DNA of 64,000 bases, from NCBI GenBank assembly GCA_029263415.1, contig JAJCXN010000056.1, positions 186,001 through 250,000 of the forward strand, given 5' to 3'. Every line of letters begins with the position of its first letter. Positions within the stretch are counted from its first letter, which is position 1. Below the pieces are notes generated by a model. That model saw nothing but the letters and a program-made list of their open reading frames with translations. It was not told where the DNA came from and searched no databases. This DNA is from Acidobacteriota bacterium (GTDB lineage: Bacteria; Acidobacteriota; Thermoanaerobaculia; Multivoradales; Multivoraceae). Positions 2,242 to 41,042 of the stretch are shown here, one piece after another. The translations under genes were made by a program, and so were the position numbers.

Positions 2242-5200
2242 TCAGTGCCCACGGAATTCGTCGGGAAACGCTCCAATATCTGCGTCGCCACAGATTGAAC
2301 CCTGTTCGTTCCAGTAGATCTTCTCCAGACCAGTCATTGTGTCGACCACGGTGATCGTGTACTCAACATCCGAAAGGCCGCCGTAGAACAGCCACCAGTT
2401 GTCATTGATCGTACGGCCATCGATCACCTTGATCGCTAGCTCGATGTTCTGGTCGGTGAAGAACCAGAAGTACCCGGTCTCATCGTCAGTGCCACCAGGA
2501 TCGACTACCGCGATACCGACACCCGGTTCCGGTTCGCCCAACACCTGGAAGTCAACACTGACGCGAAAGCGATCGTCTTGCAGGCATAAGACAGTCTCGC
2601 CACAGACAGGAGGTTCCTCGACGGGGTGAGTTTCTAGGACACGGGAGGCAACCGGGCCTGACACCGTTGAGTCGTCCGTCGGCGCCAGGTCGTCGAGCTC
2701 CGGCTCCAGGGCGAACGCAGTCAGATCCAGGGCCCCACAGATGTCCCCCTGCTCATTGCTGTACGTGCGCGACTCACCACTCCAGGTGTCAGTGACCGTC
2801 AACCAGTAGCTCACATCGGACAATGCACCATAGAACACCCAAAAATGATCGCTAAAGCTGCGGGCGTCCAACACCTTAAACACCAGCTCCACATTGCCTT
2901 CCTCGAAGAACCAGAAGCGTCCAGTATCAGTCCGAAACGGCTGCGCCCGCCCGCGGCCGCGATCACCGCTAACGCGATCGAACCACTCCGCTTCAACAGC
3001 AAAGCGCCCTGCGCCCAAACAGGCACGGGTCTCAGAAGGTTCACATGCTGTGCGGAGCGCAGATCGGTCGATGGAGAACAGTTCTCGTCCGACGTCGGAT
3101 CGGTAAGCGGCGAAATACATCTTGTCGCCCGACGCTTCCATCTCCTTTGGACCTGAACCCACCGGGCCCGGTTCGACATCGATCTGCCTGGTTCCGGCCA
3201 CGGTGCCATCGGTGAGCCATAGCTCTGTTCCGTTCTCAGCTGTCGTAGCCGCAAAGGCAAGCACACCATCTACGATCTCAGCGGCATTCACTTGCTGGGC
3301 TGAGACCGAGACTCCTAAGTTCAGAGTGCCCGCGACAGTTCCATCCGTAACCCAGAGTTCGGATCGGCCAATCGCGCGGGTCGCCGAGAAGTAGGCCAAC
3401 CCGGCAGGACCTGAGCGCGGTGCGCTGAGTGACTCGAATTCTCCTAGAACGACGGTTCCGGAAAGAGTCGCGTCACTGGAACTGAGCTGTCGAGTCGGAC
3501 CGGGCTCGCCGTCCCCTGGATCCGAGGCGAGGCTCGCACTCTGGTAGACAAACCGCCCGCGAACACCAACGCCCAAGCTTCCGTAGGGAGGGTCCGTTGG
3601 TGGATTGCCGAGATCAAAAACGACCCGCTGTCGCGCACTTGGTAAGTCCAGGTTACCGTCGCTCAAATCGATGGTCGCTAGAAACGAGGATGAGTCCTGA
3701 CCCGTTACCAAAACGTAAGCGTGCTCCTCGGTCACCGCCTGAACGCTATGCCGAATCATGGCGGCACTCAGGAGTCGAGAGCCACTGGGAGTGCCGTCGC
3801 TGATCCAGACGGAAGTCTGGTTCCCATTTGTGTTCACCCCAGGCCCCCAAGTCAAGGCCGCAGCACCGCGTCTCGTCCTGAACCCGACCAGCGGGGATGA
3901 GTCGGCTATGGCCAGATCACCGACGAGCTCAGTGGTGCCATCCAGGGTGCCATCACTAGCCCACAAACTGACCGCCGTTGAGCCACTGCCGGAGGGTTCA
4001 CTGGTCCGCAGCACCACCCTACTTCCCACCTGAACACTGCCGGAGATGAAACGCTGCGGAGCCCCTGGCGGAGGCTCAAGAACGGTTTCCTCTAGACCGG
4101 TCGCTGGATCAAGCGCCACGACCGTCTTTGGATTCATCGCCGGCGAAGCATCGACGATCAGTCGAGCGCCGGTCTCGTGCACCACCATGCGGTCTGCCGC
4201 GATCAACTCGGGGCCCGACTGAGCACCCGGCAGCACCCAGAGATCACGCGCATCCTCTTCAATCAAGCCCGGCGGATCCGCAGGAGCGAACAGCAAGCCG
4301 AGATCTGAACGGAACAAGTGTTGGGGCATTGAGGACGCAAGGTCAGGTGTCAGTGCTGCGACGAACGTCGTTCCCGGGCTTGTGCCGTCACTCCGCCACA
4401 GCTCGAGGCCTCGGCCACTCCCACCGTCCGCGATCAACAGGGCGCTACCGTTGACGATCGGCAGGGCCGCATCACCAAACGACGCTCCGTCGATCGAAAC
4501 GAAGGTATGAACTGCGCTGCCGACCCCAAGCCCGTTGCTGGTCATGACCAGTCCGGAACCATTGACCTGATCGAGCCATACGACCTGCTCTGCGCCAAGT
4601 ACGCTAATACCCTGTGGTTTCGCAGACTCGCTATTCCGAGCGAGCACGAACGTACCTACGTTGGTCGAGTTGGTGGCGAGAACTCGACCACCGGCGGGAC
4701 CGTCGGGTTGTGCGAACACCAATCGTTGCCCCATAACCTGCGCTTCGCTCCAACATTCACTGGTCGAGAACTGTCCCACAACCTGTACCTCGATTGCGCT
4801 TGCTCCAACCAGCAAGACCTGACACCCCCCTAGCGACCGGCGGTAGGTGAAGGCGCGCTCTTGAAGTGAGTTTCCACTTGCAGTGCTGATCCGCAATGGC
4901 GTCACCGACGCAGCATCCGCGCTAACCAGCTCTAGGCCGTTGTGGTCGATGTAGAACAATCCATCCTCAGCGCTGGCTGTCTGCATGACTGCAAGAGCGC
5001 CATCTCTAAACGGCAACATCGAAACGACCGACGGTGTCGCGATCGGCGCAACGGACTCCTCGATCCCGAGACCAAGTCGCAGGACCCACAAAGAGCCTTC
5101 ACCCGACTCCACTTCCTGGCTCACGACCAGAATCACATCCGCAGGTGGGTTGGTGTTCGGCCCAGGCAACGGAGCACGACCGAGCGCGAAGCCAACCGCC

Positions 5201-5778
5201 GGCAGCTCGGTGACCACTTCGAGGCCACCAGCAGGGTCATAGACGTACAACCGCTGCTGCCCAGGCTGTGCTTGCCCAAGAAAGTAGGTTTTGCCGTCCC
5301 GTTGTTGGAAGTCAGAGTTGCCTCCGTTGAGCTCAACGAACCCGTCGCAAGGCCCCGGACACAAGTCGCTGAACAGGGTCGTTCCTTCAAGGGTTCCGTC
5401 GGTCCGCCACAGCTCGCGACCAACTCCGGCTTCACTAAAGCCCGCGAAAACCATCAGAGCAGTACCGTCGCCAAGCTCGACGCCAAACAACTCGCCGTCT
5501 GCCGATCGACCACTGCCCTCGACCAGCATCCGTGTACCCGCTTGTGTGCCATTGGTGAACCACAACTCCACACGGTCATCCGGGTGGATCCGCGAGAAGA
5601 GGATGCCGTCACCCAAGGTCATCCAGTCCCCGGTTCGAGTACCGATCGGGGCTGCACCCGGCGCAAAATCGAGCGCTAGATCCACCTGTTGGGCGGCACA
5701 TACAGCTGGCCAGACCAGCAGAGCGGTCGCGACTGCAATCAGCCGGCGACGCGAATCAAGAAGAAAGCTGCGAAGCAC
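2242..5778 (-). CDS. Secreted ELWxxDGT-repeat protein with duplicated C-terminal FWFF domain
   Basis: The protein has about 1178 residues and begins with a signal peptide ending near CAAQQ. The body is built of repeats of the ELWxxDGTxxGT type (ELWRTDGTLEGT, SELWVTDGTVAGT, ELWLTDGTVAGT), probably a beta-propeller-like exported protein. The last 250 residues hold two copies of a roughly 100-residue domain with the pattern RF-x-V, YFWFF, N-x-E-L, K-V-x-D, WxFYGxLSDV, N-x-Q-G and a C-terminal AF. The two copies are separated by a linker containing paired cysteines. I chose GTG at 5778 because GGAGG sits 6 bases upstream; the longer frame from a TTG at 5799 lacks this. Function is unknown; surface or secreted location is inferred. 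Confidence 0.8.
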   Translation of the reverse strand: MLRSFLLDSRRRLIAVATALLVWPAVCAAQQVDLALDFAPGAAPIGTRTGDWMTLGDGILFSRIHPDDRVELWFTNGTQAGTRMLVEGSGRSADGELFGVELGDGTALMVFAGFSEAGVGRELWRTDGTLEGTTLFSDLCPGPCDGFVELNGGNSDFQQRDGKTYFLGQAQPGQQRLYVYDPAGGLEVVTELPAVGFALGRAPLPGPNTNPPADVILVVSQEVESGEGSLWVLRLGLGIEESVAPIATPSVVSMLPFRDGALAVMQTASAEDGLFYIDHNGLELVSADAASVTPLRISTASGNSLQERAFTYRRSLGGCQVLLVGASAIEVQVVGQFSTSECWSEAQVMGQRLVFAQPDGPAGGRVLATNSTNVGTFVLARNSESAKPQGISVLGAEQVVWLDQVNGSGLVMTSNGLGVGSAVHTFVSIDGASFGDAALPIVNGSALLIADGGSGRGLELWRSDGTSPGTTFVAALTPDLASSMPQHLFRSDLGLLFAPADPPGLIEEDARDLWVLPGAQSGPELIAADRMVVHETGARLIVDASPAMNPKTVVALDPATGLEETVLEPPPGAPQRFISGSVQVGSRVVLRTSEPSGSGSTAVSLWASDGTLDGTTELVGDLAIADSSPLVGFRTRRGAAALTWGPGVNTNGNQTSVWISDGTPSGSRLLSAAMIRHSVQAVTEEHAYVLVTGQDSSSFLATIDLSDGNLDLPSARQRVVFDLGNPPTDPPYGSLGVGVRGRFVYQSASLASDPGDGEPGPTRQLSSSDATLSGTVVLGEFESLSAPRSGPAGLAYFSATRAIGRSELWVTDGTVAGTLNLGVSVSAQQVNAAEIVDGVLAFAATTAENGTELWLTDGTVAGTRQIDVEPGPVGSGPKEMEASGDKMYFAAYRSDVGRELFSIDRSALRTACEPSETRACLGAGRFAVEAEWFDRVSGDRGRGRAQPFRTDTGRFWFFEEGNVELVFKVLDARSFSDHFWVFYGALSDVSYWLTVTDTWSGESRTYSNEQGDICGALDLTAFALEPELDDLAPTDDSTVSGPVASRVLETHPVEEPPVCGETVLCLQDDRFRVSVDFQVLGEPEPGVGIAVVDPGGTDDETGYFWFFTDQNIELAIKVIDGRTINDNWWLFYGGLSDVEYTITVVDTMTGLEKIYWNEQGSICGDADIGAFPDEFRGH

Positions 5779-5906
5779 CAAGCACCTCCGAGAAAGCAAG
5801 GTTCAAGACCTACACGACCAGGTACTCAGTCTACGACGGCCAATGGTCAAGCGTCCCCAGTTGATGATGTCTGCAGAACCTTAGTGATCGTCTCTGAAGG
5901 GAACGG

Positions 5907-6668
5907 TCACAGAACGTGATCGCGAAACGCACCGGAATAGGATCGGCTGACAATCAGCTGCGTTCCCCCTCTCACCTGCAGCTGATATCGACCAGAACCC
6001 AACGGGGTCAAGCTCTCGATCCGGCGATCGTTGACCAGGGCGCTGCGGTGGATACGGAGAAATCCGCGCTGGGCGAGGAGTTGTTCCATCTCGGACAGAG
6101 TGCGCTCGATCAAATGGCCCTCCGCGCCACAATGCAGTTTCACGTAATCGCCGTTCGCCTCGATCCAGTCGATCTCCTCAACCGCCACCGGTACGATGCG
6201 CTGCCCCTTCTTCACCAGCAGCCGGTCGGGAGTCGACGTCAAAGCATCGGCCAGTAACTGTTGCACTTCCGCGCGCGTGAGCGATCGACGTGACTCGGTC
6301 ACCCGATCGATCGCCGCATCGAACCGCTCCTGGGTCACCGGCTTGACCAGGTAGTCGATGGCCTGCGTCTCAAACGCTCTCACCGCGTAGCGGTTGTAGG
6401 CGGTGACAAAGATGACGGTGGCCTTCGTTTGATCGCGGCGGCTGAGCTCATCGAGCAACTGAAAGCCATCGAGACCGGGCATCTCAATATCGAGTAGCAC
6501 CAACTCGGGCTTGGGGCCGGGCGCGGTGATCTGATCCAGCGCTTGGGTTCCCGAGCCGGCCTCTCCGATCAGCTCAAGATCGCTCCGCGCCGTCACCATC
6601 CGGCGCAGAACATCGCGCGCCAGTGGCTCGTCGTCGACGATCACCACTTGCAGAGGCTGATTGCTCAC
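5907..6668 (-). CDS. LytTR-family response regulator
   Basis: This 253-residue protein has an N-terminal receiver domain starting VVIVDDEPLARD with the phospho-acceptor Asp in LLDIEMPG near residue 57 and the Lys in YLVKPV near 107, then a LytTR DNA-binding domain from about residue 145 (RIVPVAVEEIDWIEANGDYVKLH, HRSALVNDRRIESLTPLGSGRY). LytTR regulators bind imperfect direct repeats upstream of their targets. The start codon is GTG at 6668 and overlaps the stop of the upstream histidine kinase gene (GTGA), so the pair is translationally coupled and almost certainly a cognate two-component system. Confidence 0.93.
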   Translation of the reverse strand: MSNQPLQVVIVDDEPLARDVLRRMVTARSDLELIGEAGSGTQALDQITAPGPKPELVLLDIEMPGLDGFQLLDELSRRDQTKATVIFVTAYNRYAVRAFETQAIDYLVKPVTQERFDAAIDRVTESRRSLTRAEVQQLLADALTSTPDRLLVKKGQRIVPVAVEEIDWIEANGDYVKLHCGAEGHLIERTLSEMEQLLAQRGFLRIHRSALVNDRRIESLTPLGSGRYQLQVRGGTQLIVSRSYSGAFRDHVL

Positions 6669-7858
6669 GAAGACTCAAGCGGTAGATCGATGGTAATCAC
6701 TGCTCCTTCACCACTGGGACCAACATTGCCCACTTCCAACGAAAACGACTCTCCATACTGGTTCTCCAGGCGAGACCGCGTGATGCGCAGGCCGTTGCCG
6801 CGCCCCCGACCCGAGTGGCTAGCTGCATCCACCGCACCGGTTTCGAAATCGCCACTGTTGGGACCGGCCGAGAGGCCGCTAGTGGGGCCGGCAGAGAAGC
6901 CAACCCCGGTGTCACGCACCATCAGCCTAAGGCCAGCCTGACCGTTGCGGCTCTCGGCGTTCTCGGTCAACTGCGCTGTGACCGTGATCTCACCGCCCTC
7001 GACCTGGGCCGCGATTCCATGATGAACCGCGTTCTCCACCAACGGTTGCAGCAAGAGTGGCGGCACTAAGGCCTGCTTGACCTTCGGATCGACCTCAACG
7101 CTCACGGTGAGGCGCTCACCGAAGCGAACCGACTCGATACCCAGATAACTCTCAACCAAGCGCAGTTCGGTGGCCAGGGGCACCAGGCTCTGATCCGTGA
7201 CTTCGAGGGTTTCTCGCATGAGGTCAGACAAGCCAGCGACCATCGACTTTGCTTCTTCCGGGCGATCAGGAATCAGCGAGTAGATCGAATTGAGCGTGTT
7301 GAACAAGAAGTGTGGCCTCAACTGGGCACGCAAAGCGCGCAGTTCCGCCTCGCGCATCAAGAGCCGCAGTTGACCCGCGCGCCGTTCTTCGAGGCGCAAC
7401 TTGCGAGCGGTCCTGACCACCACCATGCCCGCCACCACCACGCCGTACATCATGCCCGCTTGCAGCCAACGCCAGTAGCCGCTCGTTTCACTGCGGATGC
7501 TCGCAACCTCGGGCCCGGCGGTGGCACTCAAGAACGCATGGAAACCAAGCTCCCACACTGCCACCAGCACGATCGCGAGCACAGCATGCACAAGCAACTT
7601 GAGGCCGCCACTCTTGCCGTCCAGGCGCGGCAAGAGCGCCCAAACGGGATTGATCAGGACAACCAGAATCCCGCATTGTAAGAACGAAGACTCAAACGAC
7701 CACAAGAAACTCAATCCCTCTTGCGCGGTCAAGACGATCGCAAGCAAGGAGGCGCCGGCCAACCACAGCGTTAGGACTAGAGCCGCGCGGCGCCACCACG
7801 ACGTGCTGAGCACGTCGCGATCGGTGTCGACCAAAGAGATGGGGCTACTTTGATGCAT
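6665..7858 (-). CDS. LytS-type sensor histidine kinase
   Basis: This 397-residue kinase has four membrane segments in the first 150 residues, a short coiled region, then the His_kinase domain with the phospho-accepting His in LRPHFLFNTLNSI (about residue 200) and a HATPase domain (NAVHHG N-box, DTGVGF G1 box, GNGLRITRSRLE G2 box). The ATP-lid region holds an unusual insertion made of an 8-residue duplication (SAGPTSGL then SAGPNSGD) between the G1 and G2 boxes. There is no extracellular sensor domain, so the signal is likely perceived in or at the membrane. Its stop overlaps the start of the LytTR regulator, and the TPR gene ends 49 bp upstream of it. Confidence 0.92.
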   Translation of the reverse strand: MHQSSPISLVDTDRDVLSTSWWRRAALVLTLWLAGASLLAIVLTAQEGLSFLWSFESSFLQCGILVVLINPVWALLPRLDGKSGGLKLLVHAVLAIVLVAVWELGFHAFLSATAGPEVASIRSETSGYWRWLQAGMMYGVVVAGMVVVRTARKLRLEERRAGQLRLLMREAELRALRAQLRPHFLFNTLNSIYSLIPDRPEEAKSMVAGLSDLMRETLEVTDQSLVPLATELRLVESYLGIESVRFGERLTVSVEVDPKVKQALVPPLLLQPLVENAVHHGIAAQVEGGEITVTAQLTENAESRNGQAGLRLMVRDTGVGFSAGPTSGLSAGPNSGDFETGAVDAASHSGRGRGNGLRITRSRLENQYGESFSLEVGNVGPSGEGAVITIDLPLESS

Positions 7859-7907
7859 CGTGGATCGCTAGGTTACCGAGTTTCCATGACCAGAAAGTCC
7901 CAAACGA

Positions 7908-8714
7908 CTACTGCTCACCAAGAGCCGGCAACAGCTGATAGCGAATCCAACCCATCTCAGGATTGATCGCCAAAGCCTGCTGGTAGACCGCACGGGCCTC
8001 TGCCGTCTTGTCCTGCGCCGCCAAGGCCTGACCAAGCCACGCCAGAGTGTCGAGATATCCCCAACTCGGCCACTCTGGCTGATCGTTGCCGGCCTGATCA
8101 GCGAAGATCGACACCGCCTCTCGTAGCAGAGTCTCGGCCTTCTTGATACTGCCGCCGAACATCTTTGGGGTGTTGAACTTGGAGATGCCCTCCTGCATCT
8201 TCACCCGCGGGTTGTCTGGAGCCATGCGCGCGGCCTTCGAGATGAGCTGGCCAGACCGCGGCCCGAGCGACATGCTGAGACCGGGATCCATGCCAATTCG
8301 AAAGCCCATGATCCCGGACAAGAGGCCCATCGCTTCGGCAGCCTCTTCACTCCTTGCTGGTGCGGTCTCGATGACCATCTCGAGATCCTTCTGAGCCGCC
8401 TTGAGCAGCTCGGCGTTCTTTGCCGGATCGCCGCCACCGAACTGGAGCGTAGCCATGCGGTAGCGGCAGTAGGCCAAGGCATAGCGCGAAGCATTGGTCG
8501 GCGACTTTTCGTTGAACGCGAGCAGCTTGTCGTGCACAGACTGAAGCCCATCAGCCTCGCCACCGACTAGAGGGTCGATCGACCGCGCAAGCTGAAGGAT
8601 CTCATCAGCTGCTTCCTCAACCATGACGCCCGGAGTCGCCAGCGACACATGCGCGGGAAGCAAAACAAGCAGCCACAGAACCACCGGAGCAAACCGAATC
8701 AATGAAGTATGCAT
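7908..8714 (-). CDS. Exported TPR-containing protein
   Basis: The 268-residue protein begins with a signal peptide (hydrophobic VVLWLLVLLPAHVSLA near residues 11-26). The mature part is helical with TPR-like units; the clearest is LGQALAAQDKTAEARAVYQQALAINPEMG at the C terminus, and KMFGGSIKKAETLLREAV is a second. A ribosome-binding AGGAG lies 8 bases before the ATG at 8714. It is the first gene of a probable operon with the LytS kinase and LytTR regulator, 49 bp away, so it may report on or belong to the same envelope response. The substrate or partner is unknown. Confidence 0.75.
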   Translation of the reverse strand: MHTSLIRFAPVVLWLLVLLPAHVSLATPGVMVEEAADEILQLARSIDPLVGGEADGLQSVHDKLLAFNEKSPTNASRYALAYCRYRMATLQFGGGDPAKNAELLKAAQKDLEMVIETAPARSEEAAEAMGLLSGIMGFRIGMDPGLSMSLGPRSGQLISKAARMAPDNPRVKMQEGISKFNTPKMFGGSIKKAETLLREAVSIFADQAGNDQPEWPSWGYLDTLAWLGQALAAQDKTAEARAVYQQALAINPEMGWIRYQLLPALGEQ

Positions 8715-8808: not shown

Positions 8809-11800
8809 TTAGCGCCTCAATGAAACCCCAAAGTAGATCGTGCGACCGAATGCAGTGCGTGCGACGCGACGCTCGCGCCAATCGGCCGAATAGACGTAGC
8901 GGAAGGCATTGCGGCGATCAAAGACATCGTTGATGCCCACAAAAGCCAGCAGGCTGGTCCCGTTGCCCACCGCAAAAGGTCGACTGGCGCTCAGGTCTAC
9001 CCGGCGAAAGCCGGGCAGACGGTCGGAATTGATCTCGGCGTAGATCGGGGTGAGACCAAACTCGGTGGCCTCGGTACCGATTACCGGCGTCGTCGGACGC
9101 CCGGTGGCAAACCGAAACCCTAGGCTCGCACTCACACCCCATGGCATCGCCTTATGAGCGACCAGCTGAATCGTGTTGGGTATTGCAAAGTCTGGCTTGA
9201 AAGCTTGAGTCGGAGTTTCATAGCGACCATTATCCTGCCAGGGGGTGTAGAGCCGTTCCGCTTCAAGGTAGGTGTAGGCGGCGAAGCCACGCCAACCTGA
9301 GCGCAAGCCGGGACTGGTGTCACTGGTTTGGAACCCCAGGAACATGTCGACACCGCGCGCGAAGCCATTTCCGGTGCTCGCATACACAGGGGGTCCGGAC
9401 TCGTTCACTTCCATAGGCAGGTCGTCGTAGCGCTTGTCATAGGCCTCGATCCGTATCTGCCAGGGGTCGCCCGCTGTGTGCAGTTGCCACGACACAACGC
9501 GGTGCTCAGCCACCGCGATTCCGAGAGCTCCGAAGTCAATGCCTTGAGACAAATACTCGATGGCTGGCGCTTGGTGATAGCGACCCCAAGCGACCCGGAA
9601 ATGCGACTCTGATCCGGCTCTCAAACTCAGCGATACGCGAGGGTCCCAAGCCGTACTGTCGGGAGCACTCCAACTGTCATGGCGAATTCCAACGTTGAGC
9701 GCGACTCGCCTGCCCACCGACCGTTCGGCTTCGACGTAGGCGCCGACGCGCCTCCGCGGCACCGCAATGTTCCACAGGCGCAAACCCTGGTCGCCGGAAA
9801 AATCGCCGCCCACCGTGGGCAGCGTGCCTAGCGATCGATGTTCGATTTCTTCAACCACCGAACCACCGCGTAGCAGCCATGTAGGAATCGGCTTCTCCAC
9901 GTCCAACCGAGCACGCCTTGTGCGATCGCCAGTGTGAATGTTGAGTACCCCGATCTCCACCTCGCTCGAGTGATCGCCAGAGCTCAAGGCCAACGAGAAC
10001 GAGGCTGGACCCAGGCCTTCCCGCCCATCGGGGCCCTTCGCGACGCCGTTCCATGCAAGCACAGCCACCCGATCTTCGTCACCTGAGTCGATCAGACCGG
10101 CAAAGTTGCCATTCTCGAGTTCCGTTCCCAGTGAGGACGTTTGGTCATAGGCGCTCAAGGACACGGTGTGTCGATCGTTCGGTTGCATCACCACGCGACC
10201 GCTTAAGTCGGTCCCACTGGGCGGCTTGCGGAAGTCCAGTTGCGAGTCATTCAGGTCGACCAACGCACGAGCGTCACGTCGGTTCGTAGCCAGCCGCACC
10301 GAACCGGTCTGGCCCACCGGGCTCTCAAGACTTGCCGACACAGCACCGAGGCCCACTGTCACCGTGAGGCTGCGCACCGAATTGGGCGGCCGCGTTGAAA
10401 GTTCCAGGACGGCCGAAAGGCTGTTGCCATACCGCGCCGGAAACCCGCCGGCACTCAAACTCAACCCCTCCAGCTCAAAAGCGTCAACGCTGCCGAAGAA
10501 TCCGCCAGTTGGCGTCTCGTTACGATAGGGGTGGTCCAGCAAAGCTCGATCCAGGTAAGTCGCGACCTCGCTCGTGTCGCCACCTCGCACAAACAGTCCC
10601 GAGCCTTCGTCGAGCTTGATCACTCCAGGCAAGGTCTGGGTCGCAAACATCGGGTCTGCGTTGGCTCCGGCAGTCGCCACGATGTCTAAGAAGCCAAACT
10701 CTTGCTGAGGTTGCAAAGATTCGTCGGTGGGCGACAGGGCCTCGACCACGATCGCTTCTTGAAAGCGCGAGACGCGCATGGTGAGATCGACCGTGACCGG
10801 CAAGTCGGCCACAAAGAAGCGTTCGATCACGGGATCGAACCCAGCGTAGGCGGCTACCAATTCGAGGGCATCAGTTCCGTTCTCAACCAACGGAAGTACT
10901 CCCGCGATCGCGAAACGGCCGTCGGCATCGGTTCGCACAGAGAGGAAGGCTGTGGTTTGCCCGGCTGCGCGCAATCCCACTTCAACGTGCGACAAGCGGT
11001 AGCCACTAGGAGCCGCAACCTCACCTCGCACCAACAGGTTCAGATCGTCCGCACCCTCGCCCAGCACCTCGCCTGGCACTTCGTCCGTATCACTCTCGTC
11101 GGTATCACTCTCGTCCGCACCCATGTCCCCACTCTCGTCCGCGGTCGCCACGTCTTCGGCGGTCGACACTTCGCTACGCGACCGTGAAGCTGCTGTCTTC
11201 GACGCAGATGTGAACTTGGCTGGCTCTCCCGGCAGATCGAGCCGGTCCATGTCGACCACCCGACCGCGGTGAATCACCAGCGAGACCGTCGCGGTGTTGC
11301 CAATGTCTTCGATCGGAGAAGCGTCGAAGACGATCAAGTTTGCAAGATCACCTGATGCCATACCAATCGACTGCGAGAGCAGCTTTGAGGCATTCGTGCT
11401 CGACGCCCGCAACGCTGCCCATGGCGACAACCCCGCCTCCACCAGAAGCTTGAGTTCGCGATGAACAGACGGCCCTTGGAAGGTGCCGGGGTTGCCCGCA
11501 TCGCTGCCGGTCAGCAGCGTGACCCCGGCGCGGTGCAACTGCGCAACCGCATCCAGGAATCCTTGCCGATCTTCGATTTGTGCCTCGCGCCAGCGGGCCA
11601 TTCGCTCGGGTAGTGGAGTTGTGCGGTCGTTGTACGTCTCCCTCAGCTCATCCAGCGAAGTTCGAGTGTAGAGCGGACCTTCGAGTTCGCCGGGCTTATC
11701 GAGAAAGTGAGAAAGATCAAGATGAACCGCCAAGGTCGGGATGCTAGCCGTGCCCTCTTTGACCATCAGATCGACCAGTGGCTGGGGCACCGGATCGTGA

Positions 11801-12603
11801 TCGGTATGAGTGATCGCATCGACACCCGCAGTCACCGCCTCCATCGCATCCGGCCAGTAGCTGGTGTGGGCCACCACCTGGATCCCGTGCTGGTGTGCCT
11901 CGTCAATGATCGCCTCCATGGTGGCCCGATCGATCGACGGCAGGGTCTCGTGCGAGGCGAGGTAGATGAGTTTGATCACATCCGGCTTCAGAACCGCCAA
12001 ACGGGAGACCTCCGCTCGCGCTTGCTGCGGGTTCTCCACTTCATGAGCAGGGTTCGGGAACTGCGTCCCGTGTCCATCGGGGCAAGTGAAAGCAGCACCG
12101 GCGGTATAGAAGTCGGAACCCACCACTGCTTCTGAGTCAGCGCGTTGCAAGTCGCGCAGCTCCAGCGCTTCCTCTTCGAAGCTCGAGAGGTCCAAGAACC
12201 CGGTTACGCCAACCGAGAGCATGCGTTCCGCGGTGCCCTCGATGCCGAACACTTCGACCTCACCCCGCGGCCCAGCGTTGCCGTAGCTGTGAACGTGGAG
12301 ATCGCTGAGCCCCGGAGCGATGAACTTCGACTCGAGATCAAGCACCTCTCCGGAAAAGCCGTCTGGCAGCGCGGGCAGCCGCTCGACGATCACTCCGTTC
12401 TCGAGGATAAGCACTTCGACGGTCTCGGTCTCCGCCACCGGGTCGAGCACGGTGCCATTGATCAGAGCCAAGCGTTCGGCACTCAACCCCACGGAGAAGA
12501 ACAGAATGAGCACAGCGACCCCGAGGGTGGTGCTGGTGGCGGTGGTCGGTGGATTGGGCTCGGTGTTGGAAGATCGCATCGTGTTTCGGCAGCTCCTTGG
12601 CAT
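8809..12603 (-). CDS. Amidohydrolase fused to TonB-dependent-receptor-like barrel
   Basis: One uninterrupted 1264-residue frame joins two proteins normally encoded separately. After a membrane or signal segment (residues 24-42) comes a metal-dependent amidohydrolase: GLSDLHVHSYG carries the HxH metal ligands (about 103 and 105), KPDVIKLIY a candidate bridging Lys, VVAHTSYW and AITHTDHD further His ligands, and LLTGSDAG the catalytic Asp (about 372). An acidic linker (about 480-520, DESDT twice) leads to a carboxypeptidase-regulatory-like beta-sandwich, a plug-like segment (LPGVIKLDEGSGLFVRGG, ARYGNSLSAVLELSTR) and about 500 residues of beta-barrel strands ending GVSLRR. Inferred topology is a periplasmic hydrolase tethered to an outer-membrane channel. 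The start is uncertain: ATG 12603 or ATG 12579 with an AGGAG upstream. Confidence 0.85.
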   Translation of the reverse strand: MPRSCRNTMRSSNTEPNPPTTATSTTLGVAVLILFFSVGLSAERLALINGTVLDPVAETETVEVLILENGVIVERLPALPDGFSGEVLDLESKFIAPGLSDLHVHSYGNAGPRGEVEVFGIEGTAERMLSVGVTGFLDLSSFEEEALELRDLQRADSEAVVGSDFYTAGAAFTCPDGHGTQFPNPAHEVENPQQARAEVSRLAVLKPDVIKLIYLASHETLPSIDRATMEAIIDEAHQHGIQVVAHTSYWPDAMEAVTAGVDAITHTDHDPVPQPLVDLMVKEGTASIPTLAVHLDLSHFLDKPGELEGPLYTRTSLDELRETYNDRTTPLPERMARWREAQIEDRQGFLDAVAQLHRAGVTLLTGSDAGNPGTFQGPSVHRELKLLVEAGLSPWAALRASSTNASKLLSQSIGMASGDLANLIVFDASPIEDIGNTATVSLVIHRGRVVDMDRLDLPGEPAKFTSASKTAASRSRSEVSTAEDVATADESGDMGADESDTDESDTDEVPGEVLGEGADDLNLLVRGEVAAPSGYRLSHVEVGLRAAGQTTAFLSVRTDADGRFAIAGVLPLVENGTDALELVAAYAGFDPVIERFFVADLPVTVDLTMRVSRFQEAIVVEALSPTDESLQPQQEFGFLDIVATAGANADPMFATQTLPGVIKLDEGSGLFVRGGDTSEVATYLDRALLDHPYRNETPTGGFFGSVDAFELEGLSLSAGGFPARYGNSLSAVLELSTRPPNSVRSLTVTVGLGAVSASLESPVGQTGSVRLATNRRDARALVDLNDSQLDFRKPPSGTDLSGRVVMQPNDRHTVSLSAYDQTSSLGTELENGNFAGLIDSGDEDRVAVLAWNGVAKGPDGREGLGPASFSLALSSGDHSSEVEIGVLNIHTGDRTRRARLDVEKPIPTWLLRGGSVVEEIEHRSLGTLPTVGGDFSGDQGLRLWNIAVPRRRVGAYVEAERSVGRRVALNVGIRHDSWSAPDSTAWDPRVSLSLRAGSESHFRVAWGRYHQAPAIEYLSQGIDFGALGIAVAEHRVVSWQLHTAGDPWQIRIEAYDKRYDDLPMEVNESGPPVYASTGNGFARGVDMFLGFQTSDTSPGLRSGWRGFAAYTYLEAERLYTPWQDNGRYETPTQAFKPDFAIPNTIQLVAHKAMPWGVSASLGFRFATGRPTTPVIGTEATEFGLTPIYAEINSDRLPGFRRVDLSASRPFAVGNGTSLLAFVGINDVFDRRNAFRYVYSADWRERRVARTAFGRTIYFGVSLRR

Positions 12604-12748: not shown

Positions 12749-13756
12749 TCAGTCCCGACCGCGCTCCAGAAGCCACAGCACATCGCTGACGTTCTCATGC
12801 AAGTAGGCGCACTCGGCCTCCTGGCCGGCGGCGAACGCCAGCAGCTCGGTCGCTAGCCCTGGATACTCGACGGCAAGCGCTTCCGCGCGATGACGGATCA
12901 AGCGGTTCTCTTCGAAGTGATCGGGCTCATTCTCAGTTGACCCGATCGGCGCTGACCCAGCCTGGTCGTGCTTGTCGGGCCGATCGTGCTTGACATACTC
13001 GTCGCACGCGCCGCGCTGAGCGGACTGAGCGGACTGAGCGGACTGGTCGGACTGGTCGGACTGGTCGGGCTGGTCGGGCTGGCCGGGCTGGCCGGGCTGG
13101 TCGGGCTGGTCGGGCTGGTCGATCACTGCGCGCACGACACGATCCCCGCACGACTCGAGCTGTTCGATCATCGCGTCTCGAGTGAGGTAGTCGGCAAAGC
13201 CCTCAAAGTCGCTGGACCCACCTTCGCGCAAAACGACGTCGTTGATCGCAATGAATCCGCCCGGGACCACGAAGCGGCGCAGGGCCGCGATCGTTGCAGA
13301 CCACGACCCGAGCACGTCGCCCAAGGCTGCCATCACCACGACGTCATATCGATCGCATCCTGGAACCGCGCCTGGGCCGGCAACTGCGTCAGACACCGAT
13401 CTTGATAGCGCCAAGATGTCGCCCACTGCAAACGTACAAAGACAAGAGACTCCGGTGACGAGGGCCGCCTCCTCGCAAGCCGCAATAAACGGCGCATGAA
13501 GATCGATGCCGTCGACCCGCCAAGCCAGTTCGTCCGCAATCTCTACTGCCACTGCCCCCTTGCCACAACCGAGATCGAGAACCCGCGTGGTACTGGGTAG
13601 CTCCAGCGACGCCAACAGTTCGACGATCCATTCAGCGTCGCCACCGAGTTCGTCGAGGTCAGCCAGCAACTCGCTCGCGAACGGGAGGAGCTTCTCGTCC
13701 ATCTCGAGTGCGTAGGCGACCATTGCGGTCTCAGAGCGGGAACGCTGTTCAGGCAC
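12749..13756 (-). CDS. SAM-dependent methyltransferase with PDQ tandem-repeat insert
   Basis: A class I methyltransferase fold is shown by motif [17 protein letters not shown] and the acidic residue in VDGIDLH, followed by [14 protein letters not shown] and [13 protein letters not shown]. After the core a low-complexity insert of QPD, QPG, QSD and QSA triplets, encoded by twelve 9-bp units at 13016-13123, separates the catalytic core from a helical C-terminal end. I favour GTG at 13756, which has AGAGAGG seven bases upstream and overlaps the stop of the MBL gene by 8 bp; ATG 13723 or ATG 13786 are alternatives. The substrate is unknown. It lies between the MBL hydrolase and the fused amidohydrolase-receptor on the same strand. 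Confidence 0.75.
13016..13123 (-). repeat. Twelve 9-bp tandem repeats inside the methyltransferase gene
   Basis: On the plus strand the units read ctgagcgga (three), ctggtcgga (two), ctggtcggg (two), ctggccggg (two), ctggtcggg (two) and ctggtcgat. The unit is a multiple of three, so copy-number change keeps the frame and lengthens or shortens the QPD/QSA tract. The ordered gradient of unit variants indicates expansion in situ. Confidence 0.95.
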
Positions 13757-14756
13757 GCACAAACCTCTCTTCCCCACCCGCAACATCCGCAGGAATCCTG
13801 CGCACTATGCCCGCGGCCGACAGTCGTTCGAGATGCAAGGTGATACTGCGCCGTTCGATCCAATCGGCCCCCTCGACCTGATCCCCCGGGCGGTAGATGA
13901 AGCGATGTTCGATCATCTCCGTCAGCGTGCGCGGTGCCCCGAGGAAGGAGAGCATCTGTTGCTCACGCTCTGAAATCCGCAATGTGTATTTGGCTAGACG
14001 CGCAACGAAGGTCTCCTGATCCACAGCAGCGATGTGATGCCCGGTCACGAACCAGCGGGCCGTCCAGTCCTTGGCCAGCTCAAGCGTGCGCTCGAATTCG
14101 ATCAGGCTCGACGCCGCGTCGCCGTAGTACGGACCGAAGCCAGACAGGTCAATGTCGGCGAGAAACACCACGTCTTGCTCGCCCGGCGACTCAGACAAAC
14201 CGGCAGAGACAGGCGACCCAGTAGGAGGCGGCCCAGTTGAGCCAGGCAACCCAGTCGAGACAGACTGCTCGACCCTCAAAGCGCAGTGTCCAGCCGTGTG
14301 ACCGGGCGTGTGCAGCGCACGCACCGAAACACCGCCAAGATCCCAGGCGTGACCGTCTTGGTAGATCTTCGCGTCGGGGCGGGCCCTAAAGTGAAAGCGG
14401 TCTTGAACGATCTGACGCCAGCGCGACGCGCGGGGCTCCGGCATGCCGAACAACTCCATGAACCCATCGAGCGACTGAATGCCGGCAGCATCTCCGCTGT
14501 GGATCCACAACGGAAGCTCGCTCACCAGCGGGTGGACCAGACCCGGGATGTGATCCTCATGACAATGAGAAAGCACCACGAAGTCCGGCGCCGGTAGCTC
14601 CCCACCAAAGGCGGACTCGAGTTCGCCCAGCAGCGACAGTGGCGCGTCAATCAAAACAGTACGCTCCGAGCCCTGTACCAAGAGGCCGTTGGCATCGGGA
14701 TAGCGGCCATTGGTTTCCCCGGTGATCAGCCAGGTGTTCTTGGTGAGTTGCTGCAT
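13749..14756 (-). CDS. MBL-fold metallo-hydrolase
   Basis: The 335-residue protein has the metallo-beta-lactamase fold signature: VVLSHCHEDHIPGL (the HxHxDH-type zinc site, near residue 85), VRALHTPGHTAGHCAL with the next His, VVFLADIDLSGFG with the bridging Asp, and VTGHHIAAVD late in the fold. A Gly/Pro/Ser-rich insert (about residues 163-195) interrupts the strand before VVFLADID. After residue 250 a winged-helix-like tail (MLSFLGAPRTLTEMIEHR, ITLHLERLSAAGIVRR) resembles the C-terminal domain of LACTB2-type MBL hydrolases. The substrate is unknown. Its last bases overlap the methyltransferase start, giving a coupled pair, and it diverges from the Tricorn gene. Confidence 0.85.
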   Translation of the reverse strand: MQQLTKNTWLITGETNGRYPDANGLLVQGSERTVLIDAPLSLLGELESAFGGELPAPDFVVLSHCHEDHIPGLVHPLVSELPLWIHSGDAAGIQSLDGFMELFGMPEPRASRWRQIVQDRFHFRARPDAKIYQDGHAWDLGGVSVRALHTPGHTAGHCALRVEQSVSTGLPGSTGPPPTGSPVSAGLSESPGEQDVVFLADIDLSGFGPYYGDAASSLIEFERTLELAKDWTARWFVTGHHIAAVDQETFVARLAKYTLRISEREQQMLSFLGAPRTLTEMIEHRFIYRPGDQVEGADWIERRSITLHLERLSAAGIVRRIPADVAGGEERFVRA

Positions 14757-14867: not shown

Positions 14868-17800
14868 ATGACCGTGAAACGGCTTTCTATAGCAATAATC
14901 CTGACGACTCTCGTCGCGAGTTCCAGCTCTGCAATCGACGTCAGCGACACCCGTTTGCTCACTCAGCCCGCCCTTTCGGCCGAGCACGTCGCCTTTGTCT
15001 ATGCGGAAGATCTCTGGGTCGCTAATCGCGACGGCTCAAACGTGAAGCGCCTGACATCTCACGAGTCCAACGTCTGGGAGCCACGCTTCTCCCCGGATGG
15101 CAAGACCATCGCCTTCAGCGCAGCCTTCGACGGCAACATCGATGTCTACACCGTGGCAGTTACCGGCGGCGCACCGCGCCGACTCACCTTTCACCCCGGT
15201 AGAGACACAGTCCAAGGCTTCACCCCCGATGGACGCGAGGTCTTGTTCGCATCCGGCCGCAGCGTCTTTACCAACCGCTACGTACAGTTGTACACCGTTG
15301 CACTCGACGCAGGCATTGGATCGGCACACAGCGCAAAGCAACTGCCGATCCCCAACGGGTTGCGCGGTACCTACTCGCCCGACGGCAAGAAGATCGCCTA
15401 CATCCCCATCGCCGAGCGCTTCGGCCAATGGAAGAATTATCGTGGCGGCACCACCTCGCGTATCTGGATCTACGACACCAACGATCACTCTGTAGTGCAA
15501 GTGCCGCAGCCCGAGGGCCGCTGCAACGACACCGATCCCGCTTGGATCGGATCGACGGTCTACTTCCGTTCTGATCGCAACGGTGAGTTCAACCTGTTCT
15601 CCTACACCGCTGGCGATGCTGATGTCACCGCGCACACTGACTATCCGGCCTGGCCAATCGAACGCGTGAGTTCAAGCGGCCGCGACCTGGTCATCGAACA
15701 GGCCGGCTACCTGCACACCTGGACCCCAGGAGATTCCGCCCCGCTTAAGCTCACCATCGGTGTAGTTGACGACCTCGACGAGACCCGTGAGCGCTGGGTC
15801 GACGGTGGCGAGTGGATCCGCAATGCAGCCCTCGCTCCTGGTGGTGAACGCGCTGTCTTTGAGTATCGCGGCGAGATCGTCACCTTGCCTGCGAAGAAGG
15901 GAAGTGCTCGCAATCTCACCGGCACCATGGGTGCGCATGAGCGCAGTCCTTCGTGGTCACCCGACGGATCACAGATCGCCTACTTCTCGGATGAAAGCGG
16001 CGAGTACCAACTATTGATCGGCAACCAAGACGGCAGCGGCGAACCCACAGTGTTTGATCTCAACGGCAGCGGCTACTACGAGAACCTGTCGTGGTCACCA
16101 GACGGCAAGCACCTCGCGTTCATCGATAACTCGTGGACGCTCTACTTGTTCGAACCTGCGAGCGAGAAACTGACCGAGATTGCTCAGGACCCGTTCTTTG
16201 GTCCCCCAGGGGTGCGCGCTCTCGCCTACGACTTCTCCCCAGACTCACATTGGTTCGCTTACACCCACAATAGCGACGCGAACATCGCCAGCGTCTGGTT
16301 CTACGACCTGAAGACTGGAGAACGACACCAAGTCACCGACGGCCTCAGCGAGGCGGCTGACCCCGTGTTTGATGAGAGCGGCAAGTACCTCTACTTCCTC
16401 TCCTCCACTGATGCCGGCCCGATCAAGAACTGGTTCGCCATGTCCAACGCCGACATGGAGATCTCGCACAACATCTACGTCGCAGTCCTGGAGTCTGACG
16501 CGGACTCGCCGCTAGCTCCTGAGAGCGACGAGGTCGAGGTGGCTGAATCGGATGCTGACTCGAGTTCAGCCGACGAGCCAAAGGGCGACAAAGATGGCGA
16601 CTCAAAGGGCGAAGCAAAGAACGCCGAGGCCAGTGAGGACACCAAGGACAGCGCAGTCACCGTCGACTTCAACGGGCTTTCTCAACGCATCTTGGCAGTA
16701 CCAACGCCCACTGGCACCTACTCCGATCTGGCCGCTGGTAAAGACGGCGTGATCTTCTATCGCCGCACCAACGACGACGGCCCCAAGCTCTACAACTTCG
16801 ACTTCAGCGATCGCGAGGAGAAGGAACTGCTGGGCAACGCGTCTGGATACGTCCTGTCGCAGGACAACAAGAAACTGCTCTACGTCTCGGGCAGAAGTTG
16901 GGGCATCGCACCAGCTGGCGGCAAAATCAATACTGGGGACACACGTCTGGCGATCGACAAGCTGACCGTCAAGGTTGATCCACGCGCCGAGTGGGAGCAG
17001 ATCTTTCGCGAGGTGTGGCGGATCCAGCGCGACTTCTTCTACGCGCCCAACATGCACGGCGCAGACTGGGACGCGATGGGCGAGAAGTACTCCGCGCTGT
17101 TGGATGACGTTGCCACTCGCGCGGACCTCAACCGGCTGCTGCGCTGGATGTGTAGCGAGCTTGCGGTTGGTCACCACCGCGTTGGCGGCGGCGATGAGCG
17201 AGTCGACACCGACCGGGTTCCGGGCGGCCTCCTGGGCGCGAACTACGAAGTGGCAGGCGACCGCTATCGGTTCAAGAAGGTGTTTGGCGGGCTTAACTGG
17301 AACCCTCAATTGCGCGCTCCGCTCACCGAACCCGGAGTCTCAGTCAAGACTGGCGAGTACCTACTCGCAGTGCGCGGTCGCGATCTCACCACCCAAGACA
17401 ACCTCTACGCTCACTTCGAGAACACATCAGGCAAGGTCATCGAGATCACCGTCGGACCTAATCGCGACGGCTCCGACTCTCGCACCGTGTCCGTAGTTCC
17501 AGTGGGGAACGAGTCGGCACTACGCAACCGAGACTGGGTCGAAGGCAATCTCAAGAAGGTCCACGACGCCACCGACGGACGCGTGGCCTATGTGTATGTG
17601 CCCAACACCACCAATCTTGGCCACACCTACTTCAAGCGTTACTTCTTCCCACAAGTCGACAAGCAGGCAATCATCGTTGACGAGCGCTTCAACGGTGGCG
17701 GCCAGGTCGCCGACTACTACATCGACCACCTGCGTCGGCCCAAGATTAGCTACTGGGCTACCCGCTATGGCAAAGATATCGCCACGCCCACCGGATCGAT

Positions 17801-18203
17801 CCAAGGGCCCAAGGTGATGCTGATCGACGAGACCGCGGGCTCGGGTGGCGATCTGCTGCCTTGGATGTTCAACAAGCTCGGCATTGGCAAACTGATTGGC
17901 AAGCGCACCTGGGGCGGCCTCGTGGGCACACTCGGCTTCCCAGTGTTGCTCGACGGTGGTTCTGTCACCGCACCGAACCTCGCCATCTGGACCGAGGACG
18001 GTTTCGTGGTCGAGAACGCTGGTGTGCCACCCGACATCGAAGTCGAACAATGGCCCGCCGATGTGATCGCCGGTCGCGACCCACAGCTCGAGAAGGCAAT
18101 CGAAGTGGTGCTCCAAGAACTGGAAGCCAACCCACCCGTTGCACCCCAGCGCCCACCCTTCCCGGTGCGAGCATCCGAAAGCTCAAGGGTCCAGCCCCAA
18201 TGA
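14868..18203 (+). CDS. Tricorn protease homologue (S41 family)
   Basis: The 1111-residue exported protein begins with a signal peptide (residues 1-24). It has two beta-propellers built of WD40/TolB-like blades (FSPDGKTIAFSAAFDGNIDVY, WSPDGKHLAFIDNS), an acidic low-complexity loop (about 540-600), a PDZ domain and a C-terminal S41 protease domain. Candidate catalytic residues are His769 or His770 in ELAVGHHRV, and nucleophile Ser992 in ETAGSGGD. The oxyanion neighbourhood GTLGFPVLLDGG and ENAGVPPDIEV match Tricorn cores. Tricorn trims oligopeptides of 6-12 residues to shorter ones; here action is periplasmic. TTGGAG lies just before the ATG. The stop overlaps the carbamoyltransferase start (ATGA). 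Confidence 0.93.
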   Translation: MTVKRLSIAIILTTLVASSSSAIDVSDTRLLTQPALSAEHVAFVYAEDLWVANRDGSNVKRLTSHESNVWEPRFSPDGKTIAFSAAFDGNIDVYTVAVTGGAPRRLTFHPGRDTVQGFTPDGREVLFASGRSVFTNRYVQLYTVALDAGIGSAHSAKQLPIPNGLRGTYSPDGKKIAYIPIAERFGQWKNYRGGTTSRIWIYDTNDHSVVQVPQPEGRCNDTDPAWIGSTVYFRSDRNGEFNLFSYTAGDADVTAHTDYPAWPIERVSSSGRDLVIEQAGYLHTWTPGDSAPLKLTIGVVDDLDETRERWVDGGEWIRNAALAPGGERAVFEYRGEIVTLPAKKGSARNLTGTMGAHERSPSWSPDGSQIAYFSDESGEYQLLIGNQDGSGEPTVFDLNGSGYYENLSWSPDGKHLAFIDNSWTLYLFEPASEKLTEIAQDPFFGPPGVRALAYDFSPDSHWFAYTHNSDANIASVWFYDLKTGERHQVTDGLSEAADPVFDESGKYLYFLSSTDAGPIKNWFAMSNADMEISHNIYVAVLESDADSPLAPESDEVEVAESDADSSSADEPKGDKDGDSKGEAKNAEASEDTKDSAVTVDFNGLSQRILAVPTPTGTYSDLAAGKDGVIFYRRTNDDGPKLYNFDFSDREEKELLGNASGYVLSQDNKKLLYVSGRSWGIAPAGGKINTGDTRLAIDKLTVKVDPRAEWEQIFREVWRIQRDFFYAPNMHGADWDAMGEKYSALLDDVATRADLNRLLRWMCSELAVGHHRVGGGDERVDTDRVPGGLLGANYEVAGDRYRFKKVFGGLNWNPQLRAPLTEPGVSVKTGEYLLAVRGRDLTTQDNLYAHFENTSGKVIEITVGPNRDGSDSRTVSVVPVGNESALRNRDWVEGNLKKVHDATDGRVAYVYVPNTTNLGHTYFKRYFFPQVDKQAIIVDERFNGGGQVADYYIDHLRRPKISYWATRYGKDIATPTGSIQGPKVMLIDETAGSGGDLLPWMFNKLGIGKLIGKRTWGGLVGTLGFPVLLDGGSVTAPNLAIWTEDGFVVENAGVPPDIEVEQWPADVIAGRDPQLEKAIEVVLQELEANPPVAPQRPPFPVRASESSRVQPQ

Positions 18204-19726: not shown

Positions 19727-22700
19727 CTAGTCGATCGAGATCTCCACCACTGAGCCGGGCCGCACATCCACCACTTCCGAGGTGATCAGCTCATCCATCG
19801 AACTGATCTCCACGGTCCACACGCCGGCCGGGATCTCCTGTGTCGTCGCGGAAAGCATTGTCTGCGTTCGATCTCTTAGCATCAGACGCATTGGCCAGCG
19901 CACGATCGTTCCACCGGCGTCGATCAAGCGCAGCGACAGGACGCCGTGCGGGCCAACCTCGCCCGGTTTGCTCGAGGTTAGATGCAGACGGCCTGTCTCG
20001 GGGTAGGTAACATCGAAGCTGTTGAAGCCACCCTCGGGTTCTGCGAGCACGGTCACCGGCCGAACCACTTGAACCAGGCCGCTGACTACGTACAACGTGA
20101 ACCGGCCAACTGGCACATCTTCGATCGTCCAACCTAGGGAACCACCACCACTCTGAACCACCGCCCCGGAGCTATCGACCAACGCCATGAAACCGTTTTC
20201 GGGTGCGCGACCACTCCAACGAAGCCGTAACTTGACCCCCGACGCCATCACCAACTGAAGAGGGGCTCCATCATCGGCAACCCAAGAGGTGTTTGCTCTT
20301 GAGTACCCTTGCAACGTGGCTTGCACGGAATACCTACCGGTGGCCGGCAGTCTCACCAACAAGCTAAAGTTGCCATCCGCATCCGTCTGCGCACTCGCGG
20401 CGGCGAGGGCGTATGTGTCCGACGCCTCGCCCGAAATCATGACGACATTCGCGCCAGCTATTCCTTCGCCCTCTTCGTCGATCACGCGTCCGACGACAGG
20501 TAGCGACTCGATCTCAATCAAGATGTCCTGATCACCCGCTACTTCAATCGTTTCGGTATGGAGGAGAGTGTCCTGAGACAGCACTGCGAGACGCACCGGC
20601 CCGGCGCTCACGCCGTCCAACTCGAAACGACCATCGGGATCGGTTTGGGCGTACCCCTCAGACCTCGAAATCTGGCTCATCGCCGAAACCGCCAAAGAGC
20701 CTCCCGGCGCCCCATTCAGAAGAACCTGGCCACTGATCCGCACATCACCGAACTCGAAGTTCACCTCCACGTCTCCTGAGGGTGGAACGTTGACCGTCTT
20801 CGTTCTGGAAGAAAGGCCCACCCGCTGCCGATGATCAAGCATCAGTCGGATCATCCCCGGAGCCACGTTGGACAGCTCGTAGCTTCCATCAAAGCCAACC
20901 TCAGCAACCAGGGGTGAACCCCCGCCTACCCAACCGATGGTGACTACACGCAATCCAGAGAGGGCATTCTCAGGAAGCCCAGAGACCAAGCCAAAAACCC
21001 GAGCTCCTTGAGCTAGTCGGATCTCGATGTTCTCGACCGGTTCCGCCACCTCGATAGGCCCCGTAGCCTTCGGCGCATGGCCGTCGGCTTGGGCACTGAA
21101 GGTCAACGTGCCTTTGAGTTGCTCGTCAAAACGGAACCTTCCCGTCTGATCGGTCGCAGTCCGTGCCCAGGTCGAGACGTGCTGTGCGCCCGAGTTGTTG
21201 GCAGTCACAAGAGCCCCGGCCACCGCTTGCCCCTCCGATCCGAGCACCACCCCACTCACTGGATATCCCTCTTCCAAGACCAGATCCAACACTTGGATCC
21301 CTTCGCGAACGGTTACTGCCGTTTGCAACTGGGTAAAACCGTCCGCATAGGCCAGCACCTGCACCACGCCGGGAGTGAGCCCTCGTAGCTGGTAGGTCCC
21401 GCCACTGAAGTTGATCGACCGATTGTTGTCCACGGTGATTCCCCCACTCGCCACGGGGCTGCCGTCACCATCGACCACACGTCCCTCAAGCCCGGCACCG
21501 GTTTGAAGCGTCACATTGAGCACCTCCCCATCCCACACAGCAGCAGGACCGGTACTCACGACATCCCCAGATGAACTCAGCACGAGATCGAACTCGGCAA
21601 GTCCACCCTCAGCATCCCAAACCTCGATCTGGATCTTTCCTGGGCGAAGACGGCCCATCACTCCCTCCCCACTCCGCATGGAATGGGACGACGACCCGCC
21701 GCCGGTTCGATCAGTAATCCGCGGCCGGTTCGCCAACTCACCCTTTGAGTCGACCACTTTCACCTTGAGGCTGAACGTCCGCCGCACCTGAACTTCGACC
21801 GACCGGTCCTGGTCCAGTTCCACGGGCTCCCACTCGCTCTCGTACTCGGGCGCCTCGACGTGCAGAGAGTAGCTACCGTCCGCAAGATTCTCATAGCGAA
21901 AGGCACCTTCCGAGTCGCTGCCAGTAAGTTGGTCTTCGTCGTATCCGCGACTGAATCTAGAGGCGTTTCCAGTCAGCACGAGTTGGAGATCCGCCACTCC
22001 TTCGCCGTTCTCATCGATCACGTGGCCACTGAGAACAAGGCCCTTGGATAGCGAAATTGTGCCGATCTCAGAATCAGTCTCTGGAAGCTCAATCCCCGAA
22101 ATAGCCGTCGGCGCGAAACCCACCGCTGACACTGCCAGCCTCACCTTGACCGGCTCGAGGTCTCGCACCTCAAAGCGCCCTTCGCCGTCGGTGGTGGTCA
22201 CTGCGAGTGGCTCTGAACCCAAACCCAATTCCTGACGCATCTGACTCGCACCATTCCCTATGCCCGGCATCACTTCAAGCATTGCACCAGGAATCGGCTG
22301 ATCGTTCTCATCGGTCACCCACCCGACTTGAGTGGCACCGGGGACCAGCACGACTTCGAGGGTCTCCAAACTAGTCTGCGCTTCCCCACGCGGGGCCAGC
22401 AAGCGCTGGTGACGGCGGTATCCCGGACGATAGACCTCCAAACGATAGGTGGTTTCGGCGGTCATTGGGCCCAGTAGGCCCGATCCATCTAAGCCCGTTG
22501 AGGCAAGCAAAGCGGTTCTTCGTCGATGGCGATTCATTTGCGTCAGCTCTTCGACCACCGACAGCGACACCCCAGGAATCGGTTCCCGATCCTCATCTAG
22601 CGTGGTGATGCGGAGCCCTCGCGCCGGCTGAACGATGATCCGCTGGTGTTCTCCGAACTCCGTATGGATCAGGTTGATCCCTGCGTCAGCCACGCGAACG

Positions 22701-23782: not shown

Positions 23783-23832
23783 ATCTTCCCCCTATCTATT
23801 CTTCCTCGTCGCTCTAACCGCCAGCACAAACA

Positions 23833-41000: not shown

Positions 41001-41042
41001 AAGCCATTCCTTTCGCGACAAGCGCGGTCCACGGATCGCGTT

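Follow-up and report, generated by a model that had tools for sequence, protein, structure and literature searches.

A so far unique fusion of an exported amidohydrolase and a TonB-dependent transporter in one acidobacterial genome

Domains and folds of the fusion protein

Cog1228-type amidohydrolases include Cc2672 (3MTW), a Zn-dependent arginine carboxypeptidase (3BE7), an Xaa-Pro/hydrophobic dipeptidase (2QS8), prolidases (3FEQ, 3MKV), ochratoxinase and ADH3. Their substrates vary widely, and characterised members of the structural group strip the C-terminal residue (Arg/Lys, hydrophobic or Pro) off dipeptides or N-acyl derivatives (PMC11342369). Taurine bile salts are deconjugated by a secreted member of the amidohydrolase superfamily (PMC13081902). 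For TonB-dependent transporters, two types of N-terminal extension are listed, transducer and Oar-like, and neither is an enzyme. All parts of these transporters that lie ahead of the plug are periplasmic. The gene described here joins an amidohydrolase to a TonB-dependent transporter in one polypeptide and is found in a 64,000-nucleotide stretch of Acidobacteriota DNA, referred to as the window (JAJCXN010000056.1, 186,001-250,000; all coordinates are positions within it). The fusion of the two is genuine and so far known from a single acidobacterial genome (Table 1).

A preliminary description of this DNA had reported a single open frame in which an exported hydrolase with metal ligands is followed, after an acidic linker, by a carboxypeptidase-regulatory domain, a plug and a barrel. 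All of these elements were recovered, on the minus strand, which that description had not given. Judged from its sequence, the frame is far beyond chance because it runs for 1264 codons with even codon-position GC and holds two independent full-length domain matches. Pfam places Amidohydro_1 at residues 94-450 (E 7e-20) and the TonB barrel at residues 919-1209 (E 5e-12). The CarboxypepD_reg match is weak and under the curated Pfam cut-off, and the domain is present in 17 of the 20 aligned barrels; for the plug Pfam gives no call, and this region aligns with relatives that have a Pfam plug and lies inside the fold-match span. Asp and Glu make up 31% of linker residues 456-520. No Pfam match to the STN signalling domain was found in the protein, in which the enzyme, the linker and the Oar-like domain fill the space before the TonB box. 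By hydropathy only, the fusion has one hydrophobic signal-like segment, at the N-terminus of the enzyme, and an alternative ATG at residue 9 lies upstream of this segment, as does the first ATG. No sigma-70-like promoter was found near the gene, a search that is uninformative in this phylum.

Structure prediction and domain search, which the preliminary description had proposed as a check, gave confident folds for both halves, with matches to amidohydrolases and TonB transporters, respectively. In the AlphaFold2 (AF2) model of the enzyme half (residues 34-540, 23-row alignment), the predicted local distance difference test score (pLDDT) is >92 across nearly the whole domain and <50 in the linker from about residue 463. 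The best fold matches are 9kov (Z 42.3), 3mtw (40.9), 3be7 (40.8), 2p9b (40.2) and 2qs8 (40.0), which bear out an amidohydrolase (beta/alpha)8 fold with a small beta-sandwich (Z 40-42). Ochratoxin-degrading amidohydrolases and prolidases follow, and imidazolonepropionases and deaminases appear only at Z <=30. The binuclear set HxH, Lys, His, His, Asp is complete in the fusion and invariant across the five closest enzyme sequences. The fold is common to the Cog1228-type enzymes over about 370 residues (Z 34-42) and the metal-ligand set is of the same type; however, identity is 22-26%, so the substrate is not transferable from these relatives, and an outer-membrane transporter is here fused C-terminally. 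The enzyme scores 98 bits with the NCBIfam Xaa-Pro dipeptidase model NF051886, below its cut-off of 500.

The AF2 model of the barrel half (residues 505-1264, 20-row alignment, mean pLDDT 80.7) and its fold matches bear out a 22-strand-type beta-barrel with an inserted N-terminal plug. FecA is matched at Z 36.3 over 557 aligned residues (root-mean-square deviation 3.4 A), BtuB at Z of about 34, and many other TonB-dependent transporters are matched as well. Between the carboxypeptidase-regulatory domain and the plug, EAIVVEA aligns with EQITVTP and DEIIVTP of relatives, a resemblance in sequence only; the genome encodes TonB C-terminal domain proteins (11 TonB_C matches above cut-off). The fusion has the same order of carboxypeptidase-regulatory domain, TonB box, plug and barrel as transporters with an Oar-like extension, and its predicted fold matches FecA, BtuB and other transporters, but the Oar-like domain is preceded by an entire enzyme, which brings a signal peptide of its own. 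On the tested features of sequence and fold, the fusion belongs to both families, and the combination is what is new.

Table 1. Positions of the fusion gene, its parts and its cassette partners in the window
Feature	Position	Strand	Basis or remark
Fusion gene, 1264 amino acids (aa)	8809..12603	(-)	ATG start, zero internal stops; amidohydrolase, acidic linker, carboxypeptidase-regulatory domain, TonB box, plug, barrel
N-terminal region, Sec-type signal peptide (hydrophobic LGVAVLILFFSVG from residue 27)	12475..12603	(-)	hydropathy and sequence
Amidohydrolase domain, residues 45-456	11236..12471	(-)	Pfam, AF2 model, PDB fold matches
HxH metal ligands His103, His105	12289..12297	(-)	alignment
Lys211, position of bridging (carboxylated) lysine	11971..11973	(-)	alignment
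His246, metal ligand	11866..11868	(-)	alignment
His266, metal ligand	11806..11808	(-)	alignment
Asp368, catalytic aspartate	11500..11502	(-)	alignment
Acidic linker, residues 457-524 (~68 residues)	11032..11235	(-)	predicted disordered; without signal-like hydrophobic segment
15-bp x 2.8 tandem repeat inside linker	11077-11117		
Carboxypeptidase-regulatory-like (Oar-type) N-terminal extension, residues 525-609	10777..11031	(-)	Pfam, alignment of relatives
TonB-box-like EAIVVEA, residues 616-622	10738..10758	(-)	alignment
Plug domain, about residues 623-740 (LFVRGGD... HPYRNETPTGG)	10384..10737	(-)	alignment, fold match
TonB-dependent transporter barrel, about residues 741-1264	8812..10383	(-)	Pfam, AF2 model, fold match
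Exported TPR protein, conserved cassette partner	7908..8714	(-)	Pfam, comparison
LytS-type membrane histidine kinase, conserved cassette partner	6665..7858	(-)	Pfam, comparison
LytTR response regulator, conserved cassette partner	5907..6668	(-)	Pfam, comparison

Integrity, rarity and origin of the fusion

A sequencing error that removed a stop codon in the linker, the first of two refutations named in the preliminary description, fails as an explanation because the product after a linker stop could not be exported. Unfused barrels of the conserved cassette described below start with their own hydrophobic signal (Kyte-Doolittle 1.7 to 2.9), whereas region 455-530 of the fusion has no signal-like stretch (best 13-residue mean 0.82). 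Two distant relatives from outside the cassette (G052, G028) reach 1.3; judged by eye, their N-terminus apparently differs and is STN-like, which would put the signal farther upstream than the part compared. The absent second signal peptide and a codon bias that is even over the whole frame, linker included, reject a frameshift or the loss of a stop codon in the linker. Repeat-driven misassembly is rejected as well: the linker DNA occurs once in the genome (best other match, 20 bases) and has no second copy able to mislead an assembler. Elsewhere in the window, a Tricorn-type protease (14868-18203, +) carries an acidic low-complexity insert (ESDEVEVAESDADSSSADEPKGDKDGDSKGE) that resembles the fusion linker, and the genome may have many inserts of this kind.

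The halves had been described as normally separate proteins, and each does stand alone in relatives. Of the 58 distinct strong barrel genes identified when all fetched loci were scanned with profiles, only that of the window has both domains. The fusion was sought elsewhere by a full-length protein scan of the named genomes, which gave none, by a barrel-profile scan, which gave three loci, all unfused, and by searches of the class and phylum (1303 genome look-ups, repeats included), which gave the window gene only. Stop-to-stop frames of 1050-1300 aa ahead of other barrels look fusion-like and were rejected: they hold no further Pfam domain and most probably reflect high-GC DNA that happens to stay open ahead of the real start codon. 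No report of an amidohydrolase-TonB receptor fusion was found in the open-access literature, which is weak evidence of absence.

In a tree, the window barrel is sister to the G304 barrel (100/98) within a clade of unfused barrels, so an unfused barrel is most simply ancestral. This nearest relative, which may or may not share the fusion, is represented by its C-terminal piece alone: the G304 contig ends inside the barrel, and a search of the assembly gave no N-terminal half. The enzyme is most closely related to exported amidohydrolases that stand alone in other genomes of the order (G051, G057, G003, G043; about 40% identity), and a free-standing paralogue is encoded in the same genome (G000:C48:134297-135526). 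Together with the fused domain they form one clade (100/99), in which the inner order is not resolved and the fused row is long-branched. Unlike the fusion, these relatives and the paralogue end after the enzyme, and no cassette barrel is adjacent within the stretches fetched. The enzyme subfamily is rare: 297 genomes drawn from across the phylum yielded, at E 1e-80, only the two copies of the window genome. A common neighbourhood of fusion and paralogue was considered, as both lie near a methyltransferase and a metallo-beta-lactamase-fold gene, and rejected, these genes being related only at superfamily level. A second amidohydrolase-family gene in the window, at 39315-41042 (-), is only distantly related.

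From the sequences compared, the fusion appears to be a derived singleton rather than a conserved system, and a recent or rare one because it was found only in the window genome among all checked. The preliminary description had also held that homologues that are always two genes would speak against it; this is true of the relatives, and the fusion itself stands as a recent or rare event. A habit of amidohydrolase fusion is visible in the phylum because its amidohydrolases are often joined to PD40 propellers, CIA30 or further amidohydrolases in tandem (L087, L080, L077, L085, L078). These proteins combine the same superfamily with other modules, but in each case the partner is a soluble module and not an outer-membrane protein. 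Within the material examined, the novelty lies in the outer-membrane partner.

The barrel cassette and its surroundings

The preliminary description had missed that the fusion heads a conserved Acidobacteriota cassette of barrel, TPR protein, LytS kinase and LytTR regulator, which exists in two gene orders. Among 72 genomes of the order, the barrel was found at E 1e-20 only in the window genome and in G004 (WTGQ01000002, an Acidobacteria metagenome-assembled genome). In the latter, a barrel with its own signal peptide is followed by TPR, LytS and LytTR genes in the order of the window, with identities to the window proteins of 37% (barrel), 37% (TPR), 34% (LytS) and 43% (LytTR). The four genes also occur in G334 (window order) and JAICEG010000117, the barrel-last order is seen in G381, G346, G229, G254, G444 and G457, and TPR and barrel are seen in G281 and G412; G304 is a further genome in which the cassette is conserved (cassette loci besides 5907-8714 of the window: L022, L061, L063-L071, L074). 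In contrast to the fusion, the unfused barrels carry a signal peptide of their own and lack the enzyme (e.g., frames of 724-787 residues in JAICEG010000117 and G334). No paper on the cassette was found in a literature search. At one further locus (L062 6601-8872, G230), the barrel frame ends early and LytTR follows directly, the missing TPR and kinase genes reflecting a deletion or an assembly gap. In the window, a gene for a 1185-aa protein (2242-5799, -) follows the LytTR gene on its strand after a gap of 107 bp; the protein has many ELWxTDGTxxGT-like repeats and no Pfam match, and its gene may belong to the same transcription unit as the cassette.

Two further features of the window were noted. 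Neighbouring genes at 19727-28023 (-) encode proteins of 1351 and 1396 aa that consist mostly of 7 and 10 carboxypeptidase-regulatory-like repeats, respectively, and the methyltransferase gene at 12749-13786 contains a 9/27-bp tandem repeat (13010-13121) that encodes a PDQPGQ/SDQSAQ-rich insert.

Possible function of the fusion

The best explanation of the whole, which is evenly poised between right and wrong, is that the fusion trims TonB-imported amide cargo at or near its periplasmic exit. The gene for a free-standing secreted amidohydrolase would have been fused in frame to the cassette's TonB-dependent transporter, with a linker that is acidic and flexible between them; the transporter's own signal peptide would have been lost, and that of the enzyme would serve the whole chain. 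The product would sit in the outer membrane with the enzyme tethered periplasmically beneath the plug. Cargo with an amide bond (a dipeptide, short peptide or N-acyl-amino acid) would then enter by TonB-driven transport and be cleaved at or near the exit, freeing the product into the periplasm. The anatomy behind this proposal is read from sequence and consists of the one frame, the domain order, the intact metal site, the TonB box, the lost second signal, the conserved cassette and the unfused relatives. The enzyme is most likely periplasmic and tethered below the pore because it is N-terminal to the TonB box and plug, a region that is periplasmic in TonB-dependent transporters, and its earlier placement on that side agrees with this order. 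An imported amide or short peptide is the best guess for the substrate, since members of the structural group cut dipeptides or N-acyl derivatives and a superfamily member deconjugates taurine bile salts. The cyclic substrate considered in the preliminary description finds no support, as the closest solved relatives cut C-terminal amino acids from dipeptides or N-acyl-amino acids (PMC11342369). We infer catalysis, the substrate class and the coupling of cleavage to import, and hydrolysis during import would be plausible. More tentatively, and somewhat short of an even chance, the protein may be an importer with a built-in catalytic N-terminal extension, a third kind beside transducer and Oar-like, in which the same polypeptide pulls cargo in and hydrolyses it at the periplasmic exit.

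Several points weigh against cargo trimming. The fusion is present in one genome only, and enzyme and barrel are not even neighbours in the other fetched loci (the exception is an amidohydrolase of a different subfamily about 3.5 kb from the G004 barrel), so coupling has no backing from conserved gene association. A long disordered linker alone does not put the enzyme at the pore exit, and substrate, activity and transport are predicted only. The barrel could instead serve only to anchor the enzyme at the outer membrane, holding it in the periplasm or stabilising it, while the enzyme acts on periplasmic amides unrelated to the barrel's cargo. Such an anchor would suit the flexible linker, the enzyme's relatives that function as free proteins, the enzyme-barrel association that is not conserved elsewhere and the secreted amidohydrolases of the phylum that are joined to unrelated modules (propeller repeats, CIA30, second amidohydrolases). 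It is nevertheless unlikely: an intact TonB box, plug and barrel, all of them conserved in the regulated relatives that lack the enzyme, point to a transporter that works.

A role in signalling, by which the enzyme domain would act on LytS/LytTR via the TPR protein in the manner of a FecA-type transducer N-terminal domain, for instance by making or destroying an inducer, is less probable still. Although the barrel mostly lies beside TPR, LytS and LytTR genes in either gene order, the same cassettes occur everywhere else without the enzyme, the fusion protein has no transducer domain by Pfam, and LytS/LytTR is not a sigma/anti-sigma pair. Lower again in probability is a polyprotein that is exported whole and then split within the acidic linker, which would leave the enzyme in soluble form beside an ordinary transporter. 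The enzyme's signal peptide is the sole one left, and the linker is predicted to be disordered and therefore likely protease-accessible, but no selection is known for the fused arrangement over two genes. That two loci were joined by the assembly is very improbable, even with a single genome in 60 contigs, no second genome carrying the fusion and a short 15-bp tandem repeat in the linker. Besides the uniqueness of the linker DNA, the join keeps the reading frame and falls between domains, codon composition is even across it, and the barrel signal peptide is neatly absent; a random join would hardly have all these properties.

A naturally occurring fusion of enzyme and importer would show that an outer-membrane transporter tolerates a 45-kDa folded enzyme before its TonB box, and would suggest what is carried by the cassette, a regulated but orphan transporter system that is present across Acidobacteriota. 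By the 'Rosetta stone' argument, the enzyme's substrate would be a guess at what the barrel imports. Within its scope of one genome, the main value of the fusion would be as a pointer to what this widespread cassette imports.

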